Made by a program: the position numbers and the translations under genes. From NCBI RefSeq assembly GCF_023822005.2, contig NZ_CP098806.1:1426001-1490000 (forward strand): DNA of 64,000 nt, given 5' to 3'. Under the pieces are notes generated by a model. It was not told the DNA's origin. It saw only the letters and a list, made by a program, of their open reading frames with translations, and did no database searches. This document shows, in pieces, positions 42,507 through 61,879 of this stretch; position 1 is the stretch's first letter; every line of letters begins with the position of its first letter. This DNA is from Dyadobacter fanqingshengii. Lineage in GTDB: Bacteria; Bacteroidota; Bacteroidia; Cytophagales; Spirosomataceae.

Positions 42507-42874
42507 CAGCAACACGGTATGTGAACGAAGCCCCCCATAAATTTAGCGATAGATTGCTTAAATGGCATCCATGACGTCAAATAAATTGATGAAGGGAATG
42601 TTAAATTAATTATTTCTCTGATCCAATTTCCCCTGCAACCGGACAGAGCAGGATAGTATGAACCACAAATACGCATACTATTGCCACATTAATACAATTC
42701 ATATCATTAATTGGATTTATTAAATATCATAAGCTTCTCTTGCAATAAATAAATGCTTACTTTCCACTTAATTCTCATCTATGGTCAGACGCGCTGAAAA
42801 CCCACTTGAAACTCTCCGAACAAACTTTATCATCAGTCGATTCACTTTTTTTAAACACTCAAACCCCTTAGCGT
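42507..42874. other. Intergenic region holding the susC1 promoter
   Basis: Apart from the regulon element at 42642-42683 nothing else is evident; the 190-base leader between the -7 box and susC1 has no hairpin that I can support. Confidence 0.5.
42642..42683 (+). promoter_or_regulatory. Regulon element copy A, upstream of susC1
   Basis: GACAGAGCAGGATAGT (42642-42657), 21 bases, TATTG (42679-42683; TACTATTG from 42676). The latter resembles the Bacteroidota -7 element TAnnTTTG; the former replaces or overlaps the -33 box. The same arrangement occurs at 47802, 51965 and 57137. It is 191 bases ahead of the start codon. Confidence 0.8.
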
Positions 42875-45800
42875 ATGAATGAAATTCGACAATCAAAACT
42901 GGGCACTTGTTTGCGGCTATTTGGGAAAATAGCATTGAGCCAGATCCTGATTGGTACAGCCCTTACCGACATTTCGGAAGCAGGAAACGTACCAAACCTT
43001 TTCCCCAATCACATTGCGCCGAAAGCAGACCGTTCGGTGAAGGGTAAAGTGGCCGACGACAAAGGAATCGGCCTGCCTGGTGTTAGCGTTATACTGAAAG
43101 GATCCAGCACCGGAACGGTGACGGATTCGGAGGGAAGCTATAACCTGAACATCCCCGAATCCGGAGAAAATGTCTTAGTCTTTTCCTTCGTCGGGTACGT
43201 ACCAAAGGAAATAAATGTGGGAAATCAGTCTTCGGTAAATGTGGAATTGCTGGTGGACACCAGAGCGCTGGAAGAAGTAGTCGTGGTTGGTTACGGAACG
43301 CAGCGCAAGCGCGATATTACATCTGCAGTATCGGTTATCAGCATGGAAGACATTGGCGAAGTGCCCAAGTCCAACGTAACGCGGATGCTGCAGGGACAAG
43401 CACCGGGTGTTATCATCAAACAAAAAAGTGGGACACCGGGACAGCAGTTTGAAGTAAAAGTGCGTGGTATCAGCTCATTAGGGGCGGGAAGTGATCCATT
43501 ATATGTCATTGACGGTTTCCCGGTCGGCACATCGGCAGGGCAGAACCTTAACCCTAACGACATTGAAACCATTTCCATCCTGAAAGATGCTGCCGCAACG
43601 GCCATTTATGGTGCACGTGGTTCTAATGGTGTAGTGCTTATCACGACGAAAGCAGCGAAGGAAGGTAAAACCAGCCTCAACATTTCCGTCGACTACGGTA
43701 TCCAAAATGTGCCGGAAGGCAGGAAAACGAAGGTGCTGAACGGGCAGGATTTTGCCCAGTTCAAGCGGGAAGTTTTTATCGGACGCTATGTTTTGGCAAA
43801 TAAAAAGCAACCCGAAGAAACCGATATCCCCATTGATTTTCGTAATCCGCAGGATACCAAATATTCAACGAACTGGTTTGACCTGATTCTCCATAACAAT
43901 GCACCTTACAAGGACGTTAACCTGACATTATCGTCTGGAAAAGGCCCGATAAAATCCGTGCTCTCCGCGGGTTATTATAAAGAAGACGGCGCATTGCAGT
44001 ACACAGGCTACGACCGTGCCTCTTTGCGGACTAACCTTGCGGGCGAAGTGAACAAGTTCATTACCATTGGAATGAACATTGCGGGAAGTTACTCCCGGTC
44101 CAGTCTGTCCAGCACCGATGGTCGTAATGCGCAAGTAGGGTTAACACTGATCAGCGATCCCCGTTATCCGGCGTATGATGAGCAAGGTGAATTGATCCCT
44201 TATTACAATGGTGTGGGCGACATTTTTGGATTTCCAAATCCGCTTTATATGCTCAAAAACATCAAAAGGAACCGGAACATTGCCGATGTGCTCGCCAGCG
44301 GTTATGTTGAATTGAACATTGCAAAAGGCCTTAGATTCCGGTCTTCTGTAAATGCGAAGATCAATTACAACAGCTACAAGGAATATGTGCCCTCCACGAT
44401 CGGTTTACCTGTGCAAACGGGAACGAACGGCGCGCCTCCGCGTATCGCTACCGAACGGGATGATTCGGAAGAGTTGAAAAACTATGCTGCTGACCAGGTT
44501 CTGACTTACACGCCGACACTCGGAAAAGATCACGCGCTGGAAGCAACAGTCGGCTATTCTGCTCAGCAGGAAGTTGTAAAAGGGTTGTACGGATCCGGTA
44601 ACACATTCCCGGATGACTTAGCGCCATTCCTGGGCAATGCAACCATTCGTTCTTCCAATTCTATGGAAAGAAAATGGACCATGATTGCCTATATCGCCAG
44701 GTTAAACTATTCATTCAGAGACAAGTATCTGTTTTCTGCCACATTCCGGCGGGAAGGCAGTTCCAGGTTCAGTGAAGGGCACAAATTCGGCAATTTCCCT
44801 GCTGTCTCCTTAGGTTGGAGGCTTTCGGAAGAATCATTTATACCAAAAGCTTCCTGGCTCACCGACCTGAAATTGAGAGGAAGCTGGGGTATGACCGGGA
44901 ACAACACCTATCGCGTGAGCGCCAACAACAACTTTGGTGTAGCTCAAAACGCAGGTGACGATGGAAATTACGAGAGTTTGTCATTCCTTGGCGTGAACAA
45001 CTACATTTTCAACAACTCTTTGGCCTCTGGAAAATCGGTGACACGCTTCGCCAACCCCGAGCTGACCTGGGAAACTTCCAATCAGCTGGACATTGGTTTC
45101 GATTTGGCGACTTTTGACAACAGGCTGGTTTTCACGGCAGAGTATTACAAAAAGATCACGGATGACATGTTGCTTGGTTACAGCATTCCAGCAGTATCAG
45201 GATTCACTTCAACCCTGAAAAACCTCGGTAAGGTGCAAAATCAAGGCATTGAACTTGCGGCAACTTACCGTATCAAAGTGGGACAGGTTAACCTGAGAAC
45301 CAACGCCAACATTACATTCAACCGCAATAAAGTGCTGGCGATCAGAGGACAAAACGACTTTATCTTGCAAGGAAGCCAGTATGGCGGCTACAACATTCAG
45401 CAAGTGGGTCGTCCGATCGGGATGATTTTCGGTTACCGTAAGCTGGGCATTTTCAATACGCAGGCTGAAATTGATGCGGCCCCGTTGCAGGAAGGTGCGG
45501 TGCCGGGCGCTATGAAATTCGCGGATCTACACGGTGCAGCGGACGGTGGGCCAGACGGAATTGTTTCTTACGATACAAAAGACATGACCGAAATTGGCAA
45601 CCCAAACCCCAAATTCAACTGGGCATGGACCGTGGGTGCCGATTACAAGCGGTTTGATGTGAGCGTGTTGCTGATGGGTGCTTACAAATATGACATTTAC
45701 CGGAATATCGAAGCATCTACAATGAATATGGACGGCGTTTTCAATGTGTTGGAAAAAGCAAAAGACAGATGGAGATCTCCCGAAAATCCGGGCTCAAACC

Positions 45801-46108
45801 CCAATGCTAAAAATTCGCAGGGTGGAACGGATTATTTCAAATGGTCGCGCGAGAGCAGCGAGCGTTATGTATACGACGGCACGCATATGTGGATCAAAAA
45901 CGTAACGATTGGCTATACGCTTCCTAACGTGAAAGGCATTCTTTCAGATGCACGGATATTCGTGAATGCGGCCAACTTGCTTCTTGTGACCAAATATCCA
46001 GGAAACAACCCGGATGCAGGCGTTAGAGGCGGTACAGAGCTCAATAACGACGATGAGTCATATCCTGTGCCCAGAACATTCTCCGCCGGCCTAAAACTTA
46101 ATTTCTAA
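42875..46108 (+). CDS. SusC/RagA-family TonB-linked outer-membrane transporter 1
   Basis: A 1077-residue protein. A signal-like N-terminus (about 1-38) is followed by a carboxypeptidase-regulatory-like domain ('VKGKVADDKGIGLPGVSVILKGSSTGTVTDSEGSYNLNIP', 55-130), the SusC TonB-box-like EEVVVVGYG (133-141), a plug with 'DPLYVIDGFPVG' and 'IYGARGSNGVVLITTK', and a 22-strand barrel ending AGLKLNF. No STN (FecR-interacting) domain is present, so an anti-sigma signalling loop is unlikely. It would import a ligand handed over by the SusD lipoprotein encoded five bases downstream. Confidence 0.94.
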   Translation: MNEIRQSKLGTCLRLFGKIALSQILIGTALTDISEAGNVPNLFPNHIAPKADRSVKGKVADDKGIGLPGVSVILKGSSTGTVTDSEGSYNLNIPESGENVLVFSFVGYVPKEINVGNQSSVNVELLVDTRALEEVVVVGYGTQRKRDITSAVSVISMEDIGEVPKSNVTRMLQGQAPGVIIKQKSGTPGQQFEVKVRGISSLGAGSDPLYVIDGFPVGTSAGQNLNPNDIETISILKDAAATAIYGARGSNGVVLITTKAAKEGKTSLNISVDYGIQNVPEGRKTKVLNGQDFAQFKREVFIGRYVLANKKQPEETDIPIDFRNPQDTKYSTNWFDLILHNNAPYKDVNLTLSSGKGPIKSVLSAGYYKEDGALQYTGYDRASLRTNLAGEVNKFITIGMNIAGSYSRSSLSSTDGRNAQVGLTLISDPRYPAYDEQGELIPYYNGVGDIFGFPNPLYMLKNIKRNRNIADVLASGYVELNIAKGLRFRSSVNAKINYNSYKEYVPSTIGLPVQTGTNGAPPRIATERDDSEELKNYAADQVLTYTPTLGKDHALEATVGYSAQQEVVKGLYGSGNTFPDDLAPFLGNATIRSSNSMERKWTMIAYIARLNYSFRDKYLFSATFRREGSSRFSEGHKFGNFPAVSLGWRLSEESFIPKASWLTDLKLRGSWGMTGNNTYRVSANNNFGVAQNAGDDGNYESLSFLGVNNYIFNNSLASGKSVTRFANPELTWETSNQLDIGFDLATFDNRLVFTAEYYKKITDDMLLGYSIPAVSGFTSTLKNLGKVQNQGIELAATYRIKVGQVNLRTNANITFNRNKVLAIRGQNDFILQGSQYGGYNIQQVGRPIGMIFGYRKLGIFNTQAEIDAAPLQEGAVPGAMKFADLHGAADGGPDGIVSYDTKDMTEIGNPNPKFNWAWTVGADYKRFDVSVLLMGAYKYDIYRNIEASTMNMDGVFNVLEKAKDRWRSPENPGSNPNAKNSQGGTDYFKWSRESSERYVYDGTHMWIKNVTIGYTLPNVKGILSDARIFVNAANLLLVTKYPGNNPDAGVRGGTELNNDDESYPVPRTFSAGLKLNF

Positions 46109-46113
46109 ATCTG

Positions 46114-47628
46114 ATGAAAATGAAAAAAATTACAGCAATAGGTTTAGTCGTGCTCCCGCTGCTCATGTCCTCCTGTGGCGAAGATTTCCTGAACCAGACC
46201 GACCCGACGAAGGTGAATGTCGATTTGTTTTATAAAAATGAAGCACAAGCCAAACAAGCGCTGAATGGTGTTTACGGACAACTTCAAGGCATTACAAACA
46301 CGGCTTATCTGGCTGGTGAATTCCAAACCGATAATACGACCATTGACCTGAACCCTTCCGATCGGGGTGGCGCGGGCGGCTGGGAAGCATTTGAGTTTTC
46401 AACTGTTAATTCTGGCAATGGCGAAATCGCCGCGATTTGGAATAATTACTATGCAACCTTATACAACGCAAATCTCACGCTCGAAAAACTGGTGGATGCA
46501 GAGATTGCCGATGGCCCTAAAAAGGAGATTGAAGGTCAATTGAAGTTCCTGAGGGCTTATCTGCATTTCAATCTGGTGCAGTATTTTGGTGATGCAGTAA
46601 TCGTAACCAGCACATTCGCAGTTCCAGAACCCACTTTTGATCTCGTAAGATCTCCGCAGACGGAAGTTTGGGCGCAGGTGGAAAAAGACCTGAAAGAGGC
46701 CATCGCATTGCTTCCTGCAAAATATGCAGCAGCGGGCGACAAAGGACGGGCGACAAAAGGTGCAGCATTGTCGTTGCTTGGCAAAACCTATTTGACCACT
46801 AAAAAATATGCGGATGCCGTTACGACACTCAAAGAAGTGACTACGCTCGGTTATGCATTAAACGCGAGTTATGCGGATAACTTCGATCCTGCACCCGCCA
46901 AGAAAAACGGGCCCGAGTCGATATTTGAAATACAATATCAGGGGGACAATGACCTTGGCGAGCAGAGCAGTTTTCAGTATGTTTTTGCGCCAAGGGTTTC
47001 CAAAGGTGCTGTTACCGGCTTCGCTGCGGGAGGAAATGGCGGCAGAAATTCGCCAACGAATGATATGATAGCGGCTTACGAAACGGGCGACTTGCGGAAA
47101 GATCTTTCGCTTAAAACCAGTTTCACGCTCGATGGAAAGGTTTATCCGATCCCATACGTGGCCAAATACAACTATCCGCATACGATTGTTCAGCGAACCA
47201 ACACAAACTGGCCCGTTTTGCGCTATTCGGATGTTTTGTTAATGCTTGCAGAATCCATTAACGAACAAACGGGACCAACCGCAGAAGCCGCTGACTACCT
47301 GAACCAGGTAAGGAAGCGTGCAGGACTGGCAGCGACAAAAGCCACAAGCAAAGCAGACTTCCGGACAGCGGTCCTCAAAGAAAGAAGGGTGGAGCTAGCT
47401 TTTGAAAACCACCGCTGGTTTGATTTGAAAAGAACCAAAACCCCTGCGGAGTGGGCAGCATTCATGAATGCACACGGCGCGGCTGAAAGGGCGAAGCCTA
47501 CCATCGATAGGGGCAATGTTCCTTTTAATTCAACAGATTACGTGTTTACTGAGAACGAATATCTGTTACCAATCCCTGCGCCTCAGATTCTCATTAATGC
47601 TAAACTGACGCAAAATCCGGGATATTAA
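46114..47628 (+). CDS. RagB/SusD-family nutrient-binding lipoprotein 1
   Basis: A 504-residue surface lipoprotein; lipobox LLMSSC with acylated C22. It shows the SusD_RagB fold with 'NQTDPTKVNVDLFYKNEAQAKQALNGVYGQLQGI', the TPR-like helices ('GQLKFLRAYLHFNLVQYFGDAVIVT', 'KGAALSLLGKTYLTTKKYADAVTTLKEV') and the C-terminal 'NQVRKRAGL...FRTAVLKERRVELAFENHRWFDLKR' signature. It forms the lid over the SusC1 channel. A terminator follows. Confidence 0.94.
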   Translation: MKMKKITAIGLVVLPLLMSSCGEDFLNQTDPTKVNVDLFYKNEAQAKQALNGVYGQLQGITNTAYLAGEFQTDNTTIDLNPSDRGGAGGWEAFEFSTVNSGNGEIAAIWNNYYATLYNANLTLEKLVDAEIADGPKKEIEGQLKFLRAYLHFNLVQYFGDAVIVTSTFAVPEPTFDLVRSPQTEVWAQVEKDLKEAIALLPAKYAAAGDKGRATKGAALSLLGKTYLTTKKYADAVTTLKEVTTLGYALNASYADNFDPAPAKKNGPESIFEIQYQGDNDLGEQSSFQYVFAPRVSKGAVTGFAAGGNGGRNSPTNDMIAAYETGDLRKDLSLKTSFTLDGKVYPIPYVAKYNYPHTIVQRTNTNWPVLRYSDVLLMLAESINEQTGPTAEAADYLNQVRKRAGLAATKATSKADFRTAVLKERRVELAFENHRWFDLKRTKTPAEWAAFMNAHGAAERAKPTIDRGNVPFNSTDYVFTENEYLLPIPAPQILINAKLTQNPGY

Positions 47629-47654
47629 GTGTCCGAATGGATTTGAATTAAATC

Positions 47655-47702
47655 ATAATAAGGAGAAGCGCTGGAAGCCGGCTGTTTCTCCTTATTATTT
47701 TT
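47655..47702 (+). terminator. Terminator after susD1
   Basis: ATAATAAGGAGAA (47655-47667) pairs perfectly with TTCTCCTTATTAT (47686-47698), 18-base loop, followed by T-rich sequence. Confidence 0.85.
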
Positions 47703-47801
47703 ACAAGGAAATCAGTAATTATTTCGTTATAAAATAGACCCCTAACCATTCATTTATTGGAAACCTTCTAAAAAGTCACGGTAATTAAATAAATCGAACA
47801 A

Positions 47802-47843
47802 GACAGAACAGGATAGTCGGTACACCGATTCGTTCTAGTATTG
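47802..47843 (+). promoter_or_regulatory. Regulon element copy B, upstream of the DUF1553 gene
   Basis: GACAGAACAGGATAGT (47802-47817), 21 bases, TATTG (47839-47843; TAGTATTG from 47836). It is 55 bases ahead of the GTG start, which places it as a promoter rather than a distant operator. Confidence 0.85.
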
Positions 47844-47898
47844 TACTAAATTACAGGCTGACATTTACCGAATTCCTGAACCACTAATCCGCTACATT

Positions 47899-50262
47899 GT
47901 GTTACTTGAAGCAACCGAAACTTTCTGGCTTTGGCAATTTTTAGGACGATTGCACCCTATGATGGTGCATTTTCCTATCGGGCTTTTGCTTGTTGCCCTA
48001 ATTCTCGAATTAATAGATTGGAAACGCAAATCCACCGGTTTGCGCGATGCCGTAAACATTTTAACCTGGATAGGCGTCGCAAGTGCCGCCTTTTCCGTCA
48101 CATTTGGCTTGTTGCTTTCAGATTCGGAGCAGTCCGAAGGCCAGACATTTGAAATACACCGCTGGGCTGGCTTTATCACACTGGGGCTGGCCATACTGGC
48201 CACCATCTCGCTCCGCAATGCTAACAGGAACATTTACCGGGCATTGTTATTCGTGACGGTGTTTGGCGTATCGTTTGCGGGCCATTATGGTGCAATGATC
48301 ACGCACGGCGACGATTATCTTACCAGCGTGATGCCATCGTCCGTTGAACCCGAACAGGAACAGTCCAACGAAGATCCCGCCGATTTTGTGCTTACCAATA
48401 ATGGTGCGCTTAATCCTCAGCAAGTGCAGGATTTGAACGTGGAAGTAAGGACGATCCTGGCACATAACTGTTACAGCTGCCACGGTGAAGCCAAATCCAA
48501 GGGCGATTTGCGGCTCGATAGCAAAGACGCCATCATGAAAGGCGGAGAAAATGGCGTTGTCGTAGTTCCGAACCACCCCGACAAAAGTGAAATGATACGT
48601 CGCATCTCCTTGCCAAAAGGAGATAAGGAAGCGATGCCGACCAAAGGCAAGCGCTTGACTGATAGAGAAATCAAAGTGCTCAAATATTGGGTTGAAAAAG
48701 GCGCATTATGGCCCGATGGCCAGGAGAAAAGCATTTACCGTGTTGCTGCACTGGAACCAAGGATTCCTGCGCTTCCGGCTGCGAGTGGCGACATTGTGCT
48801 GCCAGTGGACCGTTTGGTGAATGCGTATTTTCAAAAAAACAAAATTGCCTGGAAACCGGCTGTAAATGACCGGATCTACATTCGCAGGGTTTATCTGGAT
48901 ATCATAGGCTTATTACCGCCACCGGAAAAAGTGGAAGCTTTTGTAGCAGACGAACGTCCCGACAAGAGAGAACAGTTGGCAAAAGAACTCCTGAACCGCA
49001 ACGACGACTATGCTCAGCATTGGATGTCATTCTGGAACGACGCGCTCAGGAACGACTATTCAGGGACAGGATACATTACAGGCGGGCGGTTCGACATTAC
49101 CAAATGGCTTTACGCATCTTTGGAGGTGAATAAACCTTATAATTGGTTTGTGAAAGAATTGATCAGTCCTACCAAAGAATCAGCAGGTTTTATCAAAGGG
49201 ATCAAATGGCGCGGAACGATCAATTCCAGCCAGCGCACCGAAATGCAGGCTGCTCAGAACGTGTCCCAGGTTTTCCTTGGGCTGAACCTCAAATGCGCAT
49301 CCTGTCACGATAGTTTTGTCAGCGACTGGAAGTTGGCGGATTCCTACGCATTCGCAAACATTTTCGCGGATACATTGCTGGAAATAAACCGTTGCGATAA
49401 GCCAACGGGAAAAATCGCCGGAACGAAAATATTATTCCCTGAGCTCGGCGAGATCAGCGTGAACGCAAGCACCGAGAAAAAACTCCGTGAACTGGCCGAC
49501 TTCCTGGTGCAACCAAAGGACGGACGCCTTTACCGGACAGCAGTCAACCGCATATGGGCACAGCTGATGGGCCGCGGTATTGTGGAGCCCGTTGACGTGA
49601 TGGACAACATACCATGGAGCGAGGATCTGCTCGACTGGCTGGCATCCGATTTCGTGGCCAACGGTTATGACATGAAAAAATTGATCTACACCATTGTCAC
49701 TTCGAAAACATATCAGCTCCCGTCCTCATCGGTAAAGGAGGCGAGCGACATTATGGCCAATGACTATAAGTTTACAGGCATGGTAAGAAGGAGGCTCACT
49801 GCCGAGCAATTCTCGGACGCGATCAGCACCGCATTCAACCCCATGTATGCCGACTCGGCAATTGTGTACAAACTGCTTCCGCAGGATATCAAAACGCGCC
49901 TGCCATTTGCCCGCGCTGCCTTCGTAAAAAATGATCCGTTCCAAACATCATTAGGGCGGCCAAACCGGGAAACGGTGAGCACTTCGCGCACCTCACAAGC
50001 CAACCTTTTGCAAGCGCTTGAATTGACAAACGGAAGCAAATTCACAACTACATTGAAGCAAGGTTCGAAAGTCTGGAAGGCAAAATACCCGACTTCCGAT
50101 TCGCTGGTGACAGCCCTTTATCAGAAAGCATTGGGCAGGACACCGCTGGGTAAAGAGCTGGCCGCGGCGAAAAGGATCCTGGGCCCGGTGCCAAACGAGG
50201 AAAGCATTCAGGATCTGGTGTGGGCGATTGCCCTCGTTCCTGAGTTTCAGTTAATATATTAA
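47899..50262 (+). CDS. DUF2231 membrane / c-type cytochrome / DUF1549-DUF1553 fusion protein
   Basis: A 787-residue protein. The N-terminal ~145 residues form four transmembrane helices of the DUF2231 type ('LHPMMVHFPIGLLLVALILELIDW', 'HRWAGFITLGLAILATISL'). Then follow a PSCyt1/planctomycete-type cytochrome segment with heme motif CYSCH (191-195), a DUF1549 region containing a second CxxCH, CASCH (466-470), and the DUF1553 region at the end ('GRLYRTAVNRIWAQLMGRGIVEPVDVMDNIPWS', 'RRRLTAEQFSDAISTAFNP'). These families always occur together with DUF1501 proteins but have no assigned reaction; periplasmic electron transfer from an unknown substrate is inferred. GTG is the start. It heads a two-gene unit with the DUF1501 gene. 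Confidence 0.85.
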   Translation: MLLEATETFWLWQFLGRLHPMMVHFPIGLLLVALILELIDWKRKSTGLRDAVNILTWIGVASAAFSVTFGLLLSDSEQSEGQTFEIHRWAGFITLGLAILATISLRNANRNIYRALLFVTVFGVSFAGHYGAMITHGDDYLTSVMPSSVEPEQEQSNEDPADFVLTNNGALNPQQVQDLNVEVRTILAHNCYSCHGEAKSKGDLRLDSKDAIMKGGENGVVVVPNHPDKSEMIRRISLPKGDKEAMPTKGKRLTDREIKVLKYWVEKGALWPDGQEKSIYRVAALEPRIPALPAASGDIVLPVDRLVNAYFQKNKIAWKPAVNDRIYIRRVYLDIIGLLPPPEKVEAFVADERPDKREQLAKELLNRNDDYAQHWMSFWNDALRNDYSGTGYITGGRFDITKWLYASLEVNKPYNWFVKELISPTKESAGFIKGIKWRGTINSSQRTEMQAAQNVSQVFLGLNLKCASCHDSFVSDWKLADSYAFANIFADTLLEINRCDKPTGKIAGTKILFPELGEISVNASTEKKLRELADFLVQPKDGRLYRTAVNRIWAQLMGRGIVEPVDVMDNIPWSEDLLDWLASDFVANGYDMKKLIYTIVTSKTYQLPSSSVKEASDIMANDYKFTGMVRRRLTAEQFSDAISTAFNPMYADSAIVYKLLPQDIKTRLPFARAAFVKNDPFQTSLGRPNRETVSTSRTSQANLLQALELTNGSKFTTTLKQGSKVWKAKYPTSDSLVTALYQKALGRTPLGKELAAAKRILGPVPNEESIQDLVWAIALVPEFQLIY

Positions 50263-50436
50263 GTAACAAATGGTCTGTGATTATTAAAAGATCACTCCAT
50301 TCGATATTTATAAAAAGTAAATAATTATAATACATATTAAATTTAAAATACATTACATTAATATAAAAAGTATTAATAGTTTTAAATGTAAAATTTATAA
50401 TGTGTTAATATAGAACCCATTAAATATTTAGAAAAG

Positions 50437-51864
50437 ATGAGCATTATATGGAATAGGAGGGAATTTCTGCAAAGAGCCAGCGCCGCAACAATGGCTGCAC
50501 TGGCTGCCGGAGCACCTGTATCGAGCATTCTTTCATCTTGCAAAGGAAAATCCGGATCCGATTCTTCTGCTGATACGGTCATTTTATTATGGATGGCAGG
50601 CGGCATGGCGCATACTGAAACATTTGATCCAAAGCTTTACACGCCTTTTGAAAAGGACATGGAAGGCAACAGAGTGCTCAGCACTTTCAAGTCTGTTCCA
50701 ACAATCCTTGACGGAATCCATTTTTCTGATGGCCTGCAATCCATTGGGAAAGTAATGGACAAAGGAACATTGATCCGCTCGTACGTAGCCGCGGATATGG
50801 GTCACATTCTGCACTCGAGGCATCAATACCATTGGCATACATGTTACGAACCGCCGCAGACCGTAGCAGCTCCGCACATGGGCTCCTGGATCGCGAAAGA
50901 ACTCGGTCCAAAGAACCCGGTTATCCCGGCATTCGTGGACATTGGCCAGCGATTTACAGTGGGAGAAGCAGAAGAGTTGAAGGCTTTTCACACAGCCGGA
51001 TTTCTGGGTAATGAGTTCGGTCCGTTCTTTATTCCGGATCCGAGCCAGGGGCTGGACAGCGTGCGGCCGCCGGTGGGTATGGACGCCAAACGGTTTGAGC
51101 GCAGAAACCAGCTTTACAATGAACTGATCAACAATAGTCCGGTCGGCGAATTTGGCAGCGATTATCAGCGCGAATCTTTAAAACGGTCCATGGAACAGGC
51201 ATATGCATTGTTGAATTCACCCGAATCCAAAGCATTTGACCTGAGTACGGAGCCAAAAGAAAGTTACAATATTTACAATACGGGCAAGTTTGGCCTTGGC
51301 TGTCTGCTGGCCCGCCGTCTCACCGAGCAAGGCGCCAGGTTTATCAGCGTAACCACCGAATATGAGCCATTTAAAGGCTGGGACACGCATGAAAACGGCC
51401 ATACGAGACTGGAAGATATGAAGAAACAGATCGACGGTCCGATTGCCCAGTTGATAAAAGATCTCGACAAACAAGGTTTGCTGGACCGCACAATGGTGGT
51501 TCTCGCCAGTGAGTTCAGCCGGGATATGATGGTGGAAGGAAAGCCGGACGCAAAAGTGCTTGAACAAGTGCAGCAGCCCGACATTCTTTCTGAATTGAAA
51601 TTTTACGGAATGCACCGTCATTTTACTGATGGCGGCTCCATGTTAATGTTCGGGGGCGGGATTAAGAAGGGCTTTGTTTACGGAAAGACGGCAGATGAGC
51701 GTCCTTGCAAAACGATTGAAAATCCAATCAAGATCGACGGCGTTCACCAAACGATTTATCACGCGCTCGGCATTCCCGAAGACACCCAATACGAGGTCGA
51801 AAAACGGCCGTTTTATACAACCCCGGACGGGAAAGGAAAAGCAGTGATGGAGTTATTGTCGTAA
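50437..51864 (+). CDS. DUF1501-family protein, Tat-exported putative lipoprotein
   Basis: A 475-residue alkaline-phosphatase-superfamily-like DUF1501 protein. The N-terminus carries a twin-arginine signal (NRREFLQRASAATMAALAAG) ending in a lipobox-like ILSSC. The body has 'LLWMAGGMAHTETFDPK', 'HSRHQYHWHTCYEPPQ', 'GWDTHENGH' and 'MVVLASEFSRD', which are His/Asp-rich positions expected for metal binding. It is the standard partner of DUF1549/DUF1553 proteins. Exact catalysis is unknown. It follows the DUF1553 gene after a 174-base AT-rich gap, so a second promoter cannot be excluded. A terminator follows. Confidence 0.86.
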   Translation: MSIIWNRREFLQRASAATMAALAAGAPVSSILSSCKGKSGSDSSADTVILLWMAGGMAHTETFDPKLYTPFEKDMEGNRVLSTFKSVPTILDGIHFSDGLQSIGKVMDKGTLIRSYVAADMGHILHSRHQYHWHTCYEPPQTVAAPHMGSWIAKELGPKNPVIPAFVDIGQRFTVGEAEELKAFHTAGFLGNEFGPFFIPDPSQGLDSVRPPVGMDAKRFERRNQLYNELINNSPVGEFGSDYQRESLKRSMEQAYALLNSPESKAFDLSTEPKESYNIYNTGKFGLGCLLARRLTEQGARFISVTTEYEPFKGWDTHENGHTRLEDMKKQIDGPIAQLIKDLDKQGLLDRTMVVLASEFSRDMMVEGKPDAKVLEQVQQPDILSELKFYGMHRHFTDGGSMLMFGGGIKKGFVYGKTADERPCKTIENPIKIDGVHQTIYHALGIPEDTQYEVEKRPFYTTPDGKGKAVMELLS

Positions 51865-51879
51865 TAGTTAAACTGAATC

Positions 51880-51916
51880 AAAATCGCCGGGCAGAATCTG
51901 TCTGGCGATTTTTTTA
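51880..51916 (+). terminator. Terminator after the DUF1501 gene
   Basis: AAAATCGCCGGGCA ... TGTCTGGCGATTTT with G-T wobbles and a five-base loop, followed by seven T, ending the DUF1553-DUF1501 unit. Confidence 0.85.
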
Positions 51917-51964
51917 TGGGTTATATCCAAAAAACTCCTGCTAATTAAATATTAATTAAAACCA

Positions 51965-52006
51965 GACAGAGCAGGATAGTCCGTTGTGTCAATCATTCTA
52001 GTATTG
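51965..52006 (+). promoter_or_regulatory. Regulon element copy C, upstream of susC2
   Basis: GACAGAGCAGGATAGT (51965-51980), identical to copy A, 21 bases, TATTG (52002-52006; TAGTATTG from 51999). It is 203 bases ahead of the susC2 start codon. Confidence 0.85.
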
Positions 52007-52209
52007 CAACAATATTACTATAAGAATTAATTTTTGTCATATACGAATACAAGAGCTGGTTCCTTTCGATCCTCAATGTCATTTCCTGAACCCTTACCAA
52101 ACGTACTCACTTAACCATGATTCCTATGAAAACATGAACCATCCCAAAAAAGCCGTCGACACCGAACGGTAAAACCCTGCTAATCACTAAATCGCTAAAA
52201 CATCATCTT

Positions 52210-55200
52210 ATGAATCAATCTCGACAATCATCTTATTGTGCACGGTTGAATTCCCTCATCAAGCTTTCTCTGAGCCAGGTGCTCATTGGCACGGCCTGCG
52301 GGATTTCGGCCATTGCAACTCCGCTTTTTACGCCTAACCCTGTTTTAAAAAACAAAACCATTTCCGTTGACAAAACCATAAAAGGAAAGGTTAGCGACGA
52401 AGCCGGTGAAAAAGTGCCAGGCGTAAGCATCGTTTTAAAAGGCTCCACGACCGGTACCGTTACCGATGCGGAAGGAACTTACACCATTAATGTCCCCGAC
52501 GCTGGCGGAACATTGATTTTTTCGTCGGTAGGCTTTCTGTCTCAGGAAGTTCCAATCGGAAGCAGCGAAAATATTGATGTTAAGCTGGCAACCGACAGCA
52601 AAGCGCTGACCGAAGTGGTGGTTGTGGGTTATGGTAGCCAATTGAAAAGAGAAATTACGGGTGCTGTGCAAACAGTAAGTGCAGCGGACATTAAGGACGT
52701 GCCGGTTTCTCAGATCACCCAAAAATTACAGGGACGTCTTGCCGGTGTGCAGATCAACCAGACCACGGGTAAGCCAGGACAGGGAATGTCCGTTCGTGTT
52801 CGTGGCCAGGTATCGGTTTCCGCTGGTAGCGATCCATTATATGTTATCGACGGTTTCCCTATCACGGGCAATATCGCTGCTTTGAACCCGGATGAGATTG
52901 AGGATATTTCGGTATTAAAAGATGCCGCGTCGACTTCTCTTTACGGTTCGCGTGCAGCCAACGGCGTAGTGCTTATCACAACGAAACGTGGCAAACCGGG
53001 TGAAACCAATGTTGGGTTCACTGCCTATTATGGTATTCAAAATGTTCCTGAAAAAGGCCGGGTTAAAATGTTGAATGCTCAGGAATTCGCCCAGTTCAAA
53101 AAAGAACTTTACGAGGATGAGAATAAACCAGTGCCCGTACAATTTCAAAATCCCTCTGAGTATGCCGATAAAGACAATGATTGGTATGATGCCGTTTTGC
53201 GGTCAGCACCGATTCAAAGTTATAACCTTACCATCTCGTCTAATAAAGATAAGCTAAAAACCTCCCTTGTGGCGGGTATTTTCAATCAAAAAGGAGTTGT
53301 AATCAATAATGACTATAAGCGTTATTCTTTGCGGATGAACTCTGAGTACGATCTGTCTGACAAAATTCAGATCGGGTTCAATATTGCTCCGCAATACATT
53401 TACGACAATACGCCAAGAACAGATGGTGACCGCGGAACAGGCATTCTGTTCAATGCATTGCACACCTGGCCAGTCATGCCGATCAGGGATGCCAATGGCG
53501 AGCTGACAAAATCTAACAAGTTCCCTGAGGGCACCGGTAATATTTTTGAATATCCAAACTGGGTCAGGGCGGCACAAGAATTAATAAACGAAAACAAAAA
53601 CACCAAGCTGCTCGGTAACACGTATCTGGTTTACAGCCCGATCAAAGGACTTAAACTTAGAACAACGTTGAACATAGAGTATGAAAACAATAGGTTTTTC
53701 TTCTTCAATCCCTCTACGGCAACCAGCAATATTAACGTCGCTATTCCTACCACAGCAGTTTCTACGCGTCAAAGTTTGGAAAATGTTGGTTGGTTAAATG
53801 AGAATACGGCGGTTTACAACCGCAGCTTTGGCGACCATAATTTCGAATTACTGGCAGGTTTTACCCAACAGCGTTATCGTCAGGATTTCACCAGCATAAC
53901 GGCAGATACTTATACGGATGACAGACTTCCAACCGTACAAGGAGCAATCAACATCAACCGTGGCGGAACACAAACCGGCGCGAACGAGTGGGCATTGACA
54001 TCTTATCTTTCCCGCCTTTCTTACAACTACAAGGGGAAATATCTTTTCACTGCGGCTGTACGTGCTGATGGTTCGTCCCGTTTCGGAACTGATAACCTTT
54101 GGGGAACATTCCCATCTGCTTCTGCTGGCTGGGTAATTTCTGATGAAGAATTCCTTAAAAATGTAAGACAAGTTTCTTTTGCAAAAATTCGTGGTAGTTT
54201 CGGTGTGATCGGTAACAACAATATTGGTAACTACACCCAATATGCACTTGTTAACAACACTACCAATGCCGTTTTCGGTGGTACTGTGGCAACCGGTGCT
54301 GTTGTAACATCTTTGGCAAACAGAAACCTGGGCTGGGAAACAACCAAGCAATTTGATTTGGGACTTGATTTGGGATTGTTCAACGATCGTATACAGTTTA
54401 TCTACGACTATTACACCAAGCGGACAACAAATTTACTTTATGCTGTGCAGGTTCCGCAGGAATCAGGTTTTCCGTTCTACAATGACAACATCGGAGCGAT
54501 TAAATTGTGGGGTCATGAATTCTCTTTAACAACCAGAAACCTCGACGGAAAATTGAAATGGACCACCAACGCAAACATTTCCTTCAACAGAAATAAAGTG
54601 GTGGAACTAGCGCCTGGCATCGACCGCGTTTACGGATCATTCCACATTACGCAGGTTGGTCAGCCATTTGGTCAATTCTATGGAATGGTGAAAGAAGGTT
54701 TTTACACAAGCGCAGAAGATCTTGCTAACAACCCAGTAATTCCCGGACGTTCAGCAATTGGAACAATCAAATTGAAAGACGTGAATGGTGACGGTAAAAT
54801 CACTTATGGTGGTGATGCCGATGACCGGACCATTATCGGTAACCCGTTTCCTAAGTTTACTTACGGAATTGTTAATGACCTGAAATACGGCAACTGGGAT
54901 TTCTCTATTGCTGGATCCGGCTCATATGGCAACGAACTTTGGGTTCGCCACCTTTACAGTACTGCTAACCTCGACGGTGTATTCAATATGGTTGCGGGAG
55001 TAAAAGACCGTTTCCGCGTAAAAAATACAACGGTTAATGGAATTGGTGTGGCAACGACGGTGATCAGTCAAGGCGATGGAATGTACGGAGCAACCAACAA
55101 TGGCGGTAACTTCACGGGTATCGAGCGTGACTGGAACAGTTCACATTTCGTAGCAGATGCTTCTTATTTTACGATCAAGAACATCACAATAGGCTATAAC

Positions 55201-55413
55201 ATTGGCAAAGTGAACAAATTCTTCAAGTCTGCCCGTGTTTATGGCTCTATCCAGCAGGTGTATGTATTTACCAAATACTGGGGTGGACCAAACCCTGAAA
55301 CCAGTGCACAAGGTGATGGAAACGGCAACGGTGGTAACCTGAGCCAGGGTGTGGATTTCTCCAACTATCCTGTGCCACGTACCTGGACTTTGGGTGTAAA
55401 TTTCAACTTCTAA
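52210..55413 (+). CDS. SusC/RagA-family TonB-linked outer-membrane transporter 2
   Basis: A 1067-residue protein paralogous to SusC1. It shares the same layout: signal-like N-terminus, carboxypeptidase-regulatory-like domain ('IKGKVSDEAGEKVPGVSIVLKGSTTGTVTDAEGTY', 57-130), TonB-box-like TEVVVVGYG, plug ('DPLYVIDGFPI', 'LYGSRAANGVVLITTKRG') and barrel ending TLGVNFNF. An acidic calcium-type loop 'LKDVNGDGKITYGGDADDRTI' lies in the barrel region. No STN domain. Its partner SusD2 is encoded 38 bases downstream. Confidence 0.94.
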   Translation: MNQSRQSSYCARLNSLIKLSLSQVLIGTACGISAIATPLFTPNPVLKNKTISVDKTIKGKVSDEAGEKVPGVSIVLKGSTTGTVTDAEGTYTINVPDAGGTLIFSSVGFLSQEVPIGSSENIDVKLATDSKALTEVVVVGYGSQLKREITGAVQTVSAADIKDVPVSQITQKLQGRLAGVQINQTTGKPGQGMSVRVRGQVSVSAGSDPLYVIDGFPITGNIAALNPDEIEDISVLKDAASTSLYGSRAANGVVLITTKRGKPGETNVGFTAYYGIQNVPEKGRVKMLNAQEFAQFKKELYEDENKPVPVQFQNPSEYADKDNDWYDAVLRSAPIQSYNLTISSNKDKLKTSLVAGIFNQKGVVINNDYKRYSLRMNSEYDLSDKIQIGFNIAPQYIYDNTPRTDGDRGTGILFNALHTWPVMPIRDANGELTKSNKFPEGTGNIFEYPNWVRAAQELINENKNTKLLGNTYLVYSPIKGLKLRTTLNIEYENNRFFFFNPSTATSNINVAIPTTAVSTRQSLENVGWLNENTAVYNRSFGDHNFELLAGFTQQRYRQDFTSITADTYTDDRLPTVQGAININRGGTQTGANEWALTSYLSRLSYNYKGKYLFTAAVRADGSSRFGTDNLWGTFPSASAGWVISDEEFLKNVRQVSFAKIRGSFGVIGNNNIGNYTQYALVNNTTNAVFGGTVATGAVVTSLANRNLGWETTKQFDLGLDLGLFNDRIQFIYDYYTKRTTNLLYAVQVPQESGFPFYNDNIGAIKLWGHEFSLTTRNLDGKLKWTTNANISFNRNKVVELAPGIDRVYGSFHITQVGQPFGQFYGMVKEGFYTSAEDLANNPVIPGRSAIGTIKLKDVNGDGKITYGGDADDRTIIGNPFPKFTYGIVNDLKYGNWDFSIAGSGSYGNELWVRHLYSTANLDGVFNMVAGVKDRFRVKNTTVNGIGVATTVISQGDGMYGATNNGGNFTGIERDWNSSHFVADASYFTIKNITIGYNIGKVNKFFKSARVYGSIQQVYVFTKYWGGPNPETSAQGDGNGNGGNLSQGVDFSNYPVPRTWTLGVNFNF

Positions 55414-55451
55414 GCCAGCCCTTCATTCAATTCATTATTTAATTATCAGAT

Positions 55452-56960
55452 ATGAAAACAAGATATATAGCAACCTGGCTACTGACATTTGCCCTGGCCG
55501 GTTGCCGCGAAGAATTCTTAACCGTCGTCCCGGAAACAGCATTGAGTTCCGCCACGTTTTTTGTAACGCAATCGGATTTTCAGCAAGCTGTGAATGCGGC
55601 TTATGTTCCCTTGCGCCAGATGTACAACGAACGTGCATGGGTACTGGAAGAAATGCACTCGGATAACACGTATTACGCAAGAAACACCCTATATGGTGCT
55701 GTGGATCCAACGGAGAACGTTGCAGATTTCGCCGTTCCTACGGCGGGTGGCGTAACCGCAAATGATAACGTTTTGGTTCAGTATCGCCTTAATTATCAAA
55801 TCATTGCGAGAGCCAACCAGATCCTGGCATTGATCGACGGTGTAGATTTTGCGGAAGCCTCAAAAAGTAACCTGAAAGGACAAGCATTGTTCCTGAGAGC
55901 CTTCGCTTATTTTGATTTGGTGCGTTTGTTCGGTAAAGTGCCGCTTCACCTTGTCCCTGTAGTTGGACGTGAAGACGCGGCATCTCCGCTGGCCGGCACT
56001 GAGGAAATCTATGCACAGATTGAAAAGGACGCAAAAGAAGCAAGCACATTGCTTCCCAATAAAGCAAAACAGGAAGCTGGTCGCGCAACCTCCGGTGCAG
56101 CCAAGACCGTTCTTGCTAACCTTTACATCACTCAAAAGAAATGGGCTCTGGCAGAGCCGGTCTTGAAAGACGTGATTACTAATGATGGCTACACCTTGAT
56201 GCCTGATTACAACAATGCGTTTTCGACGACGACTGCCAATAAAAACAATGCAGAATCCGTATTCGAGATCCAGTATATGGAAGGATCGGCAGGATACAAT
56301 GGTAATCAGATTTACCGTTTCATTCCGTCCCCAATTTCTGCAACCGAAATTGCACCTATAACCGGTACGTCCAACCCTCAGGCGACTTCTCAGGAAAGCA
56401 ATAACATTCCAACGCCTGACCTGATAGCTGCATACGAAGTAGGTGATAAGCGCAAGGATGCTTCGATCGCTTATGTGACATTGAGTGGCACTCTGGCAGA
56501 AAATAAGGTTTATCCTTATATCAAGAAATACGCAAAAACGCACTCGCTGCATAACAACACAGGTCAAAACTGGCCGGTTTATCGTTACGCCGAAGTTTTG
56601 CTTTTCATGGCAGAAACGCTTAACGAGCAAGGAAAATTAGCAGAAGCAGCCACTTACCTGAACCAGATTCGCACGCGTGCAGGTCTTGCTGCTACAAAGG
56701 CAACCTCACAGGCAACGATGCGCGAAGCGATTTTCAAAGAAAGGAGAGTTGAGCTTGCATTTGAAAACAAACGCTGGTTTGATTTGACTCGCACGGGTCG
56801 TGTGAAAGAGATCATCGGTGCTTATGGTGCAAAAGTGAAAGCCAATCCACAAGCTTACTACTTCCCCAAAGGAGCAGTTCCTCCGCCAAATGCATTCACC
56901 GTTCTGGACGACTATTATGGACTTCCTGCCGTAGAAGCAGCATTGACGCCGCATTTTTAA
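55452..56960 (+). CDS. RagB/SusD-family nutrient-binding lipoprotein 2
   Basis: A 502-residue surface lipoprotein; lipobox ALAGC acylated near residue 18. It shows the SusD_RagB TPR-like fold ('SNLKGQALFLRAFAYFDLVRLFGKVPLHLVPV', 'SGAAKTVLANLYITQKKWALAEPVLKDVI') and the C-terminal 'NQIRTRAGL...REAIFKERRVELAFENKRWFDLTR' signature. It forms a pair with SusC2. It is followed by a large octamer-repeat palindrome. Confidence 0.93.
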   Translation: MKTRYIATWLLTFALAGCREEFLTVVPETALSSATFFVTQSDFQQAVNAAYVPLRQMYNERAWVLEEMHSDNTYYARNTLYGAVDPTENVADFAVPTAGGVTANDNVLVQYRLNYQIIARANQILALIDGVDFAEASKSNLKGQALFLRAFAYFDLVRLFGKVPLHLVPVVGREDAASPLAGTEEIYAQIEKDAKEASTLLPNKAKQEAGRATSGAAKTVLANLYITQKKWALAEPVLKDVITNDGYTLMPDYNNAFSTTTANKNNAESVFEIQYMEGSAGYNGNQIYRFIPSPISATEIAPITGTSNPQATSQESNNIPTPDLIAAYEVGDKRKDASIAYVTLSGTLAENKVYPYIKKYAKTHSLHNNTGQNWPVYRYAEVLLFMAETLNEQGKLAEAATYLNQIRTRAGLAATKATSQATMREAIFKERRVELAFENKRWFDLTRTGRVKEIIGAYGAKVKANPQAYYFPKGAVPPPNAFTVLDDYYGLPAVEAALTPHF

Positions 56961-56969
56961 GAGCACAAT

Positions 56970-57123
56970 GTTGAATGAGTGAATGAGCTCAATTTTGAAT
57001 GAGTGAATGAGTGAATGAGTGAATGGTTGACTATTTATCAATGATTCATAACTTCAATCATTCACTCATTTTTTTATTCACTCACTCACTGACTCACTCA
57101 CTCACTCATTTCACTCATTCAAC
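56970..57123. repeat. ATTCACTC octamer inverted-repeat array, copy 2
   Basis: Runs of GAATGAGT octamers on the left (56970-57025) and ATTCACTC/CACTCACT units on the right (57058-57123) face each other. The outermost arms, GTTGAATGAGTGAATGAG and its inverse ending ATTCAAC, match with one extra base. The array starts 10 bases after the susD2 stop and may serve as terminator; repeats this regular are expected to vary in number. Confidence 0.75.
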
Positions 57124-57136
57124 ATTGACTTTTCCC

Positions 57137-57178
57137 GACACAACAGGATAGTCTAAAGCCCGTTTCCTCTTAATATTG
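57137..57178 (+). promoter_or_regulatory. Regulon element copy D, upstream of the beta-propeller/cytochrome gene
   Basis: GACACAACAGGATAGT (57137-57152), 21 bases, TATTG (57174-57178; TAATATTG from 57171). It is 110 bases ahead of the start codon. It differs from copies A and C by two bases in the upstream half, while CAGGATAGT and the spacing are unchanged. Confidence 0.85.
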
Positions 57179-59985: not shown

Positions 59986-60029
59986 ATCATCAATTTTTTG
60001 AGTAGATTATGTTTTATTGAGCTTAATAT

Positions 60030-60063
60030 AGTGGTGCAGGGAATCCTTGCACCACTACTTTTT
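60030..60063 (+). terminator. Hairpin between cytochrome and isomerase genes
   Basis: AGTGGTGCAGGG (60030-60041) pairs with CCTTGCACCACT (60045-60056) with one G-T pair and a three-base loop, followed by ACTTTTTC. It has terminator form but lies between the cytochrome gene and two TIM-barrel genes that look like its operon partners, 30 bases before the first ATG. Partial termination would lower isomerase expression. Confidence 0.7.
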
Positions 60064-60093
60064 CTATCCAGTTCCACAATTTTCAGCATGCAA

Positions 60094-60987
60094 ATGAAAC
60101 GTATCGAAAGACGTTCTGTTTTAAAAAATATTGCCGCCGGCGCGGGATTGATTACGCTACCCGTTTCTTTGGCCGATGCATTCGCCGCTTCGGAAAAGGC
60201 ACTCGGCCCGAAACTAAATGGCAAGATCAATCACTCCGTTTGTAAATGGTGTTACGGAAAAATCCCATTGGAGACTTTCGCACAGGATTGTAAAAAGATC
60301 GGGTTAACATCCATTGAACTGCTGGGACCAGCTGAATGGCCGGTTATTAAAAAATACGGTCTTACTTGCGCATTGCCCTGGGGTGAAGGTCTTACCAGAA
60401 ATATTGAAAAAGGTTTCAATGATCCGGCCAATCACGAAGAACTGATCAAAGGCTTTGAAGATGTAATTCCAAAAGTGCAGGCAGCAGGTTATGACAAGAT
60501 TATTTGTTTTTCGGGAAACCGCCGCGGAATGTCAGACACTGACGGATTGCGCAATTGCGCCGTAGGATTGAAAAGATTGATTCCGATTGCGGAAAAGCAC
60601 AATGTAACATTGGTCATGGAATTGCTCAACAGCAAAGTGAATCACCGGGATTACCAGTGCGACCGGACGGAGTGGGGGGCAGCCCTTTGTGAAATGGTCG
60701 GCTCGGAAAAATTCAAGTTGCTTTACGACATTTACCATATGCAGATCCAGGAAGGCGACGTAATTGCGACCATCAAAAAATATCACAAATACATTGCCCA
60801 TTATCACACGGGCGGCGTTCCGGGACGTAACGAAATTGATGAAACGCAGGAATTATATTATCCTTCAATTATGAAGGCAATTGTGGAAACGGGCTACAAA
60901 GGCTTTGTAGGTCAGGAGTTTATCCCAAGCCGCAAAGATGACATTGCATCTCTGAAACAGGGTGTTACCATTTGTGACATCGCCTGA
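60094..60987 (+). CDS. TIM-barrel sugar isomerase/epimerase-like protein 1, Tat-type leader
   Basis: A 297-residue xylose-isomerase-like (AP endonuclease 2 superfamily) protein. Its leader ERRSVLKNIAAGAG is a twin-arginine-type signal followed by a weak hydrophobic stretch to about residue 30. The barrel has 'HSVCKWCYGKIPLETF', 'SIELLGPAEWP', 'IICFSGNRRGMSDTDGLRNC', 'LVMELLNSKVNHRDYQCD', 'FKLLYDIYHMQIQEGD' and 'HYHTGGVPGRNEIDETQEL', where E, D, H and E supply the metal site. It resembles hydroxypyruvate isomerase. The ATG at 60094 is chosen; an ATG at 60088 is nearly equivalent. The second copy follows after 25 bases. Confidence 0.85.
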   Translation: MKRIERRSVLKNIAAGAGLITLPVSLADAFAASEKALGPKLNGKINHSVCKWCYGKIPLETFAQDCKKIGLTSIELLGPAEWPVIKKYGLTCALPWGEGLTRNIEKGFNDPANHEELIKGFEDVIPKVQAAGYDKIICFSGNRRGMSDTDGLRNCAVGLKRLIPIAEKHNVTLVMELLNSKVNHRDYQCDRTEWGAALCEMVGSEKFKLLYDIYHMQIQEGDVIATIKKYHKYIAHYHTGGVPGRNEIDETQELYYPSIMKAIVETGYKGFVGQEFIPSRKDDIASLKQGVTICDIA

Positions 60988-61012
60988 TATTTCATTTCAA
61001 AAAAATACTAAC

Positions 61013-61879
61013 ATGTCTACGAGACGATCTGTTTTAAAAAGTTTAGCGGCAGGCACCGGCGTGTTTTCGCTATCCGAAGTTTTTGCTGCTAATGAAAAAG
61101 CCCTTGGTGCTAAATTGAATGGTAAGATTAACCATTCCGTTTGTAAATGGTGTTATGGAAAAATTCCTCTGGATACTTTCGCAAAGGAATGTAAAGAAAT
61201 GGGAATTACATCCATTGAACTCCTGGGGCCGGAAGATTGGCCTACACTCAAAAAATATGGCCTGACTTGTGCGCTGCCAAATGGCGCAGGAATGGGGATC
61301 GAGAAAGGTTTTAATGATCTCGCATTACATGATGAGCTAGTGAAAAGCTATGAGGACCTTTTTCCAAAATTGAAAGAAGCTGGTTACACAACGGTCATTT
61401 GTTTTTCAGGAAACCGTCGCGGCATGTCAGACATTGACGGTATGCGCAACTGTGCCATCGGACTTAGAAGATTGATGCCATCCGCGGAAAAGTATGGAAT
61501 TACAATGATCATGGAGTTGCTTAACAGCAAAGTGAATCATAAGGATTACATGTGCGATCACACTGCATGGGGTGCGGGATTATGCGAAATGGTTGGTTCA
61601 GAGCACTTTAAGTTGCTTTATGACATCTACCACATGTCCATTATGGAAGGAGATGTGATTGCAACCATCAAAAAATATCATAAATACATTGGACATTATC
61701 ACACGGGGGGAGTCCCTGGCAGAAATGAGATTGACGAAGGCCAGGAGTTATATTATCCGGCGATCATGAAAGCCATTGTGGAAACGGGCTTCAAAGGTTA
61801 CGTCGCTCAGGAATTTATTCCAAAACGAGAACCACTGGCTTCGCTGAAACAATGTGTTCAGATTTGCGACATTGCTTAA
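61013..61879 (+). CDS. TIM-barrel sugar isomerase/epimerase-like protein 2, Tat-type leader
   Basis: A 288-residue paralog of the preceding gene, aligned along its full length and sharing most residues, with leader TRRSVLKSLAAGTG and the same metal motifs ('ICFSGNRRGMSDIDGMRNC', 'MIMELLNSKVNHKDYMCD', 'LLYDIYHMSIMEGD', 'HYHTGGVPGRNEIDEGQEL'). The ATG at 61013 gives the short Tat leader; upstream in-frame sequence lies inside the first copy. Tandem duplication is evident. The two may form a heteromer or act on different substrates. Confidence 0.85.
   Translation: MSTRRSVLKSLAAGTGVFSLSEVFAANEKALGAKLNGKINHSVCKWCYGKIPLDTFAKECKEMGITSIELLGPEDWPTLKKYGLTCALPNGAGMGIEKGFNDLALHDELVKSYEDLFPKLKEAGYTTVICFSGNRRGMSDIDGMRNCAIGLRRLMPSAEKYGITMIMELLNSKVNHKDYMCDHTAWGAGLCEMVGSEHFKLLYDIYHMSIMEGDVIATIKKYHKYIGHYHTGGVPGRNEIDEGQELYYPAIMKAIVETGFKGYVAQEFIPKREPLASLKQCVQICDIA

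Follow-up and report, generated by a model that had tools for sequence, protein, structure and literature searches.

In AraR of Bacillus subtilis, a Firmicute arabinose repressor acting on palindromic operators, a GntR-type DNA-binding domain is paired with a LacI-like effector domain. To our knowledge, few regulators of SusCD clusters outside Bacteroides have known operators. L-Rhamnose catabolism in Bacteroides thetaiotaomicron is described as being controlled by RhaR (BT3768), an AraC-family protein with a single target operon and a direct-repeat operator of 21-bp period (PMC3870299, PMC3878776). Direct repeats are also bound through GntR-type domains, as reported for FarR, NagQ, NanR, GabR and TauR (PMC4494728, PMC5320631), the repeat units of TauR and FarR being 10 letters long; the table of this comparative study of GntR motifs includes one Bacteroidetes factor (PMC4494728). 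The sigma-A promoter of Bacteroidota has been reported to carry a −7 box, TAnnTTTG, at −12 to −5 (PMC9723704), and a TTTG motif at −33 has been described in Bacteroides fragilis and reported as not identifiable in Flavobacterium johnsoniae (PMC7366714). Here we describe a tandem 10-bp direct repeat that heads four operons in a 64,000-nucleotide stretch of Dyadobacter fanqingshengii DNA (contig NZ_CP098806.1, positions 1,426,001 to 1,490,000; hereafter the window), and we propose that at this element a GntR-type L-rhamnose regulator probably acts as a class-II activator, which would unite the four operons with three further transcription units of the genome.

The proposed system would share with B. 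thetaiotaomicron RhaR the control of L-rhamnose catabolism in the same phylum through a direct-repeat operator, whereas its candidate regulator combines GntR and periplasmic-binding-protein (PBP)-like domains, its repeat has a 10-bp period and its predicted targets are seven units. It resembles AraR in domain pairing but not in phylum, sugar or operator symmetry. With FarR, NagQ, NanR, GabR and TauR it would have in common a GntR domain on direct repeats, although those proteins have other effector domains or belong to other phyla and recognize other sequences. The likeness to the sigma-A promoter lies in the −7 box and its position; unlike that promoter, the window sites have TATTG rather than TTTG, and the −33 region is replaced by the repeat. 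No earlier description of a GntR-type rhamnose regulator in Bacteroidota, or of this regulon, was found in the open-licence literature.

The initial annotation of the window had noted a conserved 16-base string at a fixed distance from TATTG at 42642, 47802, 51965 and 57137, and a pattern search confirmed the four sites at these positions, all on the + strand: CAGGATAGT-N21-TATTG has four matches in the window against 0.00 expected, and GACANANCAGGATAGT has four without mismatches, against 0.27 expected with two mismatches allowed. Each site is intergenic and lies ahead of a different transcription unit (susC1–susD1, PSCyt/DUF1553–DUF1501, susC2–susD2 and cytochrome–isomerases), as had been annotated; equally borne out by Pfam scans were the lack of an STN domain in both SusC proteins (no STN hit) and the lack of a regulator gene among the nine open reading frames (ORFs) of the cluster that were scanned. 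Nor is the string frequent in the host genome (6,272,774 bases), where CAGGATAGT-N21-TATTG occurs exactly four times, always in this cluster, with one more place at one mismatch (608160) that is likewise upstream of a PSCyt gene. Because loose patterns in the host genome are dominated by chance (42 matches against 37 for the reversed pattern at ≤2 mismatches, 9 against 4 at ≤3 mismatches, and 632 against 342 for the string at three mismatches), only exact or conserved sites and a profile were used. A match at window position 39252, inside a dapD-like gene (39078-39893), was dropped as chance.

The 16-mer is conserved as claimed but is a cut-down view of a longer element. An alignment of 40 of the 70 collected sites (alignment A1; the cluster sites among the 70 were picked for their spacing to TATTG) reveals a 19–20-bp tandem direct repeat with a 10-bp unit. 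Identity between boxes is highest at offset 10 (0.68), against 0.54 at offset 5 and ≤0.34 at all others, and 0 of 2,000 column shuffles reached the observed box match. The best copy in the host genome, at 5433606, is CAGGTTAGTA CAGGATAGT; all four window sites have a perfect right box, CAGGATAGT, and a degenerate left box (CCGGACAGAG, CAAGACAGAA, CCAGACAGAG, CCCGACACAA). Eighteen base pairs after the right box stands an 8-base −7-like box that reads TAnTATTG at the window sites, AATTTTTG at the DUF1080 site and TAATCTTG at rhaD, each one base off the sigma-A consensus TAnnTTTG. Counted from the position of this box, the tandem repeat would lie at about −49 to −31, and no TTTG-like −33 motif is found within these repeats. 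These features support the annotated view of a promoter element in which a −7-like box is present and the −33 box has given way to a site for a dedicated regulator. An 8-bp inverted repeat (ATAGTATG/CATACTAT) at the first window site is missing from the other three and was set aside as coincidence.

Although the four sites of the cluster are real, the element is not confined to it. A scan of the 6.27-Mb genome with profile R1 returned seven sites only (E 1.5e-8 to 6.4e-5), the next candidate having an E value of 0.51; as all seven were in the training set and their scores are not independent, the informative part of the scan is that there is no eighth site. Informative too is the scan of the genus, in which the profile finds, at E ≤ 0.01, 3 to 8 sites in each of 48/48 Dyadobacter genomes, some of which had supplied training sites. 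This single profile covers the rhaD site and the window sites, having been trained on both, and the rhaD variant differs at several positions. RhaD scores above its NCBIfam cut-off, and RhaI is a clear homologue below the equivalog cut-off. The initial annotation missed the repeat structure, the three further genome sites and, at a distance of about 2.2 Mb, a plausible regulator gene close to rhaI. The parts of the window promoters and their operons (window positions), followed by the further sites (genome positions), are:

42639..42648, + strand: left 10-bp box CCGGACAGAG, susC1 promoter (alignment)
42649..42657, + strand: right box CAGGATAGT, susC1 promoter (pattern search, alignment)
42676..42683, + strand: −7-like box TACTATTG, susC1 promoter, 18 bp after the right box
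42875..47628, + strand: operon 1, SusC1 (42875-46108) and SusD1 (46114-47628) (Pfam)
47799..47808, + strand: left box CAAGACAGAA, PSCyt/DUF1553 promoter (alignment)
47809..47817, + strand: right box CAGGATAGT, PSCyt/DUF1553 promoter (pattern search, alignment)
47836..47843, + strand: −7-like box TAGTATTG, PSCyt/DUF1553 promoter
47899..51864, + strand: operon 2, DUF2231-PSCyt1-DUF1549-DUF1553 protein (47899-50262, GTG start as listed) and DUF1501 protein (50437-51864) (Pfam)
51962..51971, + strand: left box CCAGACAGAG, susC2 promoter (alignment)
51972..51980, + strand: right box CAGGATAGT, susC2 promoter (pattern search, alignment)
51999..52006, + strand: −7-like box TAGTATTG, susC2 promoter
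52210..56960, + strand: operon 3, SusC2 (52210-55413) and SusD2 (55452-56960) (Pfam)
57134..57143, + strand: left box CCCGACACAA, cytochrome promoter, more degenerate than the other three (alignment)
57144..57152, + strand: right box CAGGATAGT, cytochrome promoter (pattern search, alignment)
57171..57178, + strand: −7-like box TAATATTG, cytochrome promoter
57289..61879, + strand: operon 4, cytochrome c protein (57289-59985) and two xylose-isomerase-like TIM-barrel proteins (59998-60987, 60962-61879) (Pfam)
Genome 608149: site before a second PSCyt/DUF1553, DUF1501 and PSCyt1 set (profile R1)
Genome 5433606: site before 3-keto-disaccharide hydrolase, TIM-barrel isomerase, ThuA, DUF4432 and Gfo/Idh genes (profile R1)
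Genome 3678844: site before rhaD–rhaI (profile R1)

Between susD2 and the fourth site (56960-57130) there is a short-repeat tract (GAATGAGT..., CACTCACT...) that could form a large imperfect hairpin. Beside the cluster, at 40110-40556 (+), lies the gene for a helix-turn-helix protein (XRE-like by eye) that belongs to a group of 11 members.

Conservation of the element follows the promoters. Across 31 Dyadobacter cluster loci, window included and ORFs starting <360 bases from a locus end left out, a site with ≤2 mismatches precedes susC1 in 15/21, PSCyt in 17/30, susC2 in 22/22 and the cytochrome gene in 23/25 cases, as well as a gene for an extracytoplasmic function (ECF) sigma factor in the susC2 position in 2/2, compared with 1/235 of the other ORFs of those loci. 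In the four promoter classes, the conserved positions are clustered within the repeat and the −7 box; among 30 loci with a perfect repeat, the sequence 5′ of it varies between lineages. Among the 48 Dyadobacter genomes, 36 have the exact string, as do 6 of the 174 others of the family; for the full repeat CAGGNNAGTACAGGATAGT (≤1 mismatch) the counts are 46/48 and 26/174, respectively, with reversed-pattern controls of the wide searches hitting 2/222 genomes (exact string), 0/222 in the rows listed (full repeat) and 2/395 (a phylum sample). In two Dyadobacter loci (L051 and L053, 11466-13360) the element heads an ECF–FecR pair before susC2; here the downstream operon has changed and the element has stayed. 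No clear common ECF-type motif was found in the susC1, susC2 and cytochrome promoters of Larkinella. Seven loci of that genus (L061, L070, L071, L076, L084, L088, L092) have an ECF-like gene divergent to the orthologous susC1 with a tandem repeat, CAGGTAAGTACAGGA, upstream of the ECF-like gene, which suggests a cascade from regulator to ECF factor.

The neighbours of the element in other genomes point to rhamnose. In the phylum sample of 395 genomes it occurs in 11 besides the host genome, in 6 of which it stands just upstream of a rhaT, rhaD or α-L-rhamnosidase gene; four of these six have a GntR gene in the same rha locus. In three possibly Flavobacterium-like genomes from a single other family (L274, L278, L279) the element lies between a rhaT/rhaD/rhaI/sugar-kinase operon and a divergent gene encoding a GntR protein with a Peripla_BP_3 domain, and in a genome of another family (G228; L270) it precedes rhaD–rhaI–kinase, overlapping the end of the preceding gene, while a GntR gene of this type closes the operon at its other end (the rhaI, rhaD and kinase labels of L270, L278 and L279 were given by eye from similarity to L274). 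It precedes rhaT in G387 and an α-L-rhamnosidase gene in G399 (L272), there again overlapping the end of the preceding gene. Neighbour genes are other or unclear in G519, G609 and G543 (3/11), and the sites of L282 and L283, inside coding genes, look like chance and were counted as misses (2/11). Closer to the host, G099 and its relatives, which form one genus of the family, have the element ahead of a rhaI-like gene, of rhaT, of a SusCD pair and of an ECF gene (the last two labelled by eye); elsewhere it stands upstream of a GH106 rhamnosidase gene (L216) and of a truncated ORF whose N-terminal domain is of GH78 type (L217). In Dyadobacter itself, a site lies upstream of rhaD–rhaI in 12/12 rhamnose loci read, the rhaD ORF being shortened in L363. 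The linkage of element, regulator type and rhamnose genes recurs in several families. G228 also carries four tandem 10-bp repeats (L252: CAGGACACCA CAGGATAGAG CAGGACACTA CAGGATAGTT; a close variant in L261), an arrangement suggesting that two dimers can line up.

The candidate regulator is encoded near rhaI (G000:C1:3670399-3671415). Its GntR (PF00392, 49.6 bits) and Peripla_BP_3 (PF13377, 41.3 bits) domains both score above cut-off and give it an AraR-type architecture, with an N-terminal GntR winged helix-turn-helix and a C-terminal LacI/periplasmic-binding-like domain; the DNA-binding domain of AraR is among the closest solved structures to its own (4egy, E 8.6e-9). The GntR gene adjoins rhaI in 11 of 12 Dyadobacter rhamnose loci, lies three ORFs away from it in the host genome, and has an orthologue in 48/48 Dyadobacter genomes (81–100% identical). 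Two of these genomes, G051 and G055, have one GntR/PBP protein only, yet possess both cluster sites and a DUF1080-type site; should the window sites be bound in these genomes by a GntR/PBP protein, it would be the one of the rha locus, because there is no other.

Relatives of the cluster link changes in the recognition helix to changes in the repeat. The Spirosoma version has its own GntR/PBP gene in seven loci, divergent to susC1 where susC1 is present, and all seven (7/7) contain a variant repeat, GGWARGTRWRGGAAAGT, with 12 sites in total, 10 of them followed by AATATTTG 18 bases on; a site was also found in two of three more loci without that GntR gene in view, and the variant pattern is absent from the remaining loci of that search. 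The corresponding repeats are TAGGAAAGT for the Spirosoma cluster and CAGGATAGT for Dyadobacter. The helix reads AKGTVERAY, SKGTVERAY or SKGTIERAY in the Spirosoma cluster proteins (7/7), versus SRDTVEKAY or ARDTVEKAY in GntR proteins linked to CAGG repeats. Where the helix of a Dyadobacter paralogue is SKRTVERAY, the gene next to it is preceded by GGGGACAGTT GAGGACAGTT; upstream of two paralogues with SRNTIERVY stand CAGGACAGTT AGGGACGGTT and CAGGACAGAT AGGGACAGTT. An exception to the pairing is an RD helix with left boxes starting in A (AAGGACAGTA, L274). Asp–C and Arg–G are reported among the frequent predicted contacts of GntR proteins (PMC4494728). In this small, hand-collected set, the covariation of helix and site is suggestive.

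From these patterns in the DNA we infer that this GntR protein binds the four window sites, that it activates rather than represses and that its inducer belongs to rhamnose metabolism. Presumably as a dimer, it would occupy the two 10-bp direct repeats on one helix face, from about −49 to −31, as a neighbour of RNA polymerase with its primary sigma factor on the −7 box, and would act as a class-II activator once it has bound L-rhamnose or an intermediate as its sugar signal. This would jointly switch on rhaD–rhaI, the four window operons, the second PSCyt/DUF1501 operon and the 3-keto-disaccharide-hydrolase/isomerase cluster. Class-II activation appears most likely because the repeat stands where the −33 box would be and keeps a constant spacing to the −7 box, and L-rhamnose or an intermediate is the likely inducer because the linked genes are rhamnose genes.

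Repression through the same site, with the GntR-type protein blocking the −33 region until the sugar signal releases it, we regard as unlikely. GntR proteins are commonly repressors and the site overlaps the place expected for sigma region 4, but the repeat–N18–(−7 box) spacing is kept at sites that were not picked for it (DUF1080-type, rhaD and ECF), and 10 of the 12 sites in Spirosoma loci with a GntR gene read AATATTTG at the same distance, a constancy for which a repressor would have no need; in the Larkinella PSCyt promoters the spacing is 17 instead of 18. Nor is a TTTG-like −33 box left in the repeat. That an AraC-family or other activator, such as an AraC-type RhaR or a hybrid two-component regulator, reads the tandem repeat is improbable, even though an AraC-type monomer contacts two grooves that are separated by one turn, G228 has four tandem 10-mers and one Spirosoma-type site (L247) has an AraC-like gene nearby. 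The B. thetaiotaomicron rhamnose regulator is itself AraC-type (PMC3870299, PMC3878776), but the AraC-type motif described for Bacteroides is a direct repeat of 21-bp period (PMC3870299) and the period here is 10 bp. Moreover, with the L247 protein as sole probe, 0/204 ORFs of 16 rhamnose loci matched, a single probe being able to miss a distant AraC protein, whereas a GntR gene is present in all 16.

An alternative sigma factor, with the upstream part as its −35 element, had also been considered in the initial annotation; for an ECF factor we judge this very improbable. The element does precede ECF–FecR–SusC operons or lone ECF genes (L051, L053, L064, L215, L224, L226 and the Larkinella loci; ECF and FecR labels Pfam-confirmed for L051 and given by eye for the rest). 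However, 19–20 bp of conservation with an internal 10-bp repeat is too long for a −35 box, and sister sites have near-consensus, sigma-A-like −7 boxes at an equal distance. The element also heads rhaT and rhaD operons, the cluster ORFs of the window include no ECF gene, the best host-genome homologue of the linked ECF factor is without the element, and the ECF genes that adjoin it sit downstream, as apparent targets. The slenderest chance falls to a DeoR-family rhamnose repressor on 10-bp repeats: DeoR-type RhaR motifs of other groups are described as direct repeats of 10–11 bp (PMC3870299) and a DeoR gene lies near Spirosoma-type sites, with a 90%-identical protein in the host (L240/L245, G000:C1:1970265), but the host gene has a different 10-bp tandem repeat in its own promoter (TTTTATTTTC, by eye) and heads a different sugar cluster.

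Several observations weigh against a single GntR-type activator. In the Dyadobacter cluster loci a good match is missing at 6/21 susC1 and 13/30 PSCyt promoters, and susC2 genes behind ECF–FecR have a site in 0/2 cases. The rhaD site (CAGGATACAA CAGGACGGT) differs from the cluster sites and the left boxes in the window are degenerate, for which reason two regulators could be involved. The 1.5 kb or so around the Dyadobacter GntR orthologue contained no element in 27/27 loci scanned, so there is no sign of autoregulation in this genus, and around GntR homologues in 11 non-Dyadobacter loci the element is present in 4 and not in 7. GntR/PBP homologues occur in 211/222 family genomes (E ≤ 1e-40) and a strong element in 72/222; being nearly universal, the homologues make presence across the family uninformative. 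Most GntR operators are palindromes, direct repeats being a minority, and GntR proteins are more often repressors.

On a wider and more tentative reading, which we hold to be nearly as likely as not on present sequence comparisons, a branch of GntR + PBP regulators widespread in Bacteroidota could work by class-II activation, with tandem 10-bp direct repeats in the position of the −33 box and a code that can be read in part: the residue after Arg/Lys in the recognition helix (Asp, Gly or Arg) would correspond to the base with which the right repeat starts (C, T or G, respectively); L-rhamnose would then be the signal for orphan planctomycete-type cytochrome/DUF1501/DUF1553 genes and SusCD pairs, and the Spirosoma cluster would have been handed to a diverged paralogue with diverged sites. 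The variants of helix and operator offer a natural series for studying how GntR proteins read direct repeats. For a cluster with PSCyt, DUF1501 and DUF1553, names of unknown function in Pfam, the element provides a concrete operator, along with candidates for the regulator and the inducer. If the proposal is true, rhamnose use would be tied to poorly understood outer-membrane and cytochrome genes, most likely through one sugar-sensing protein.

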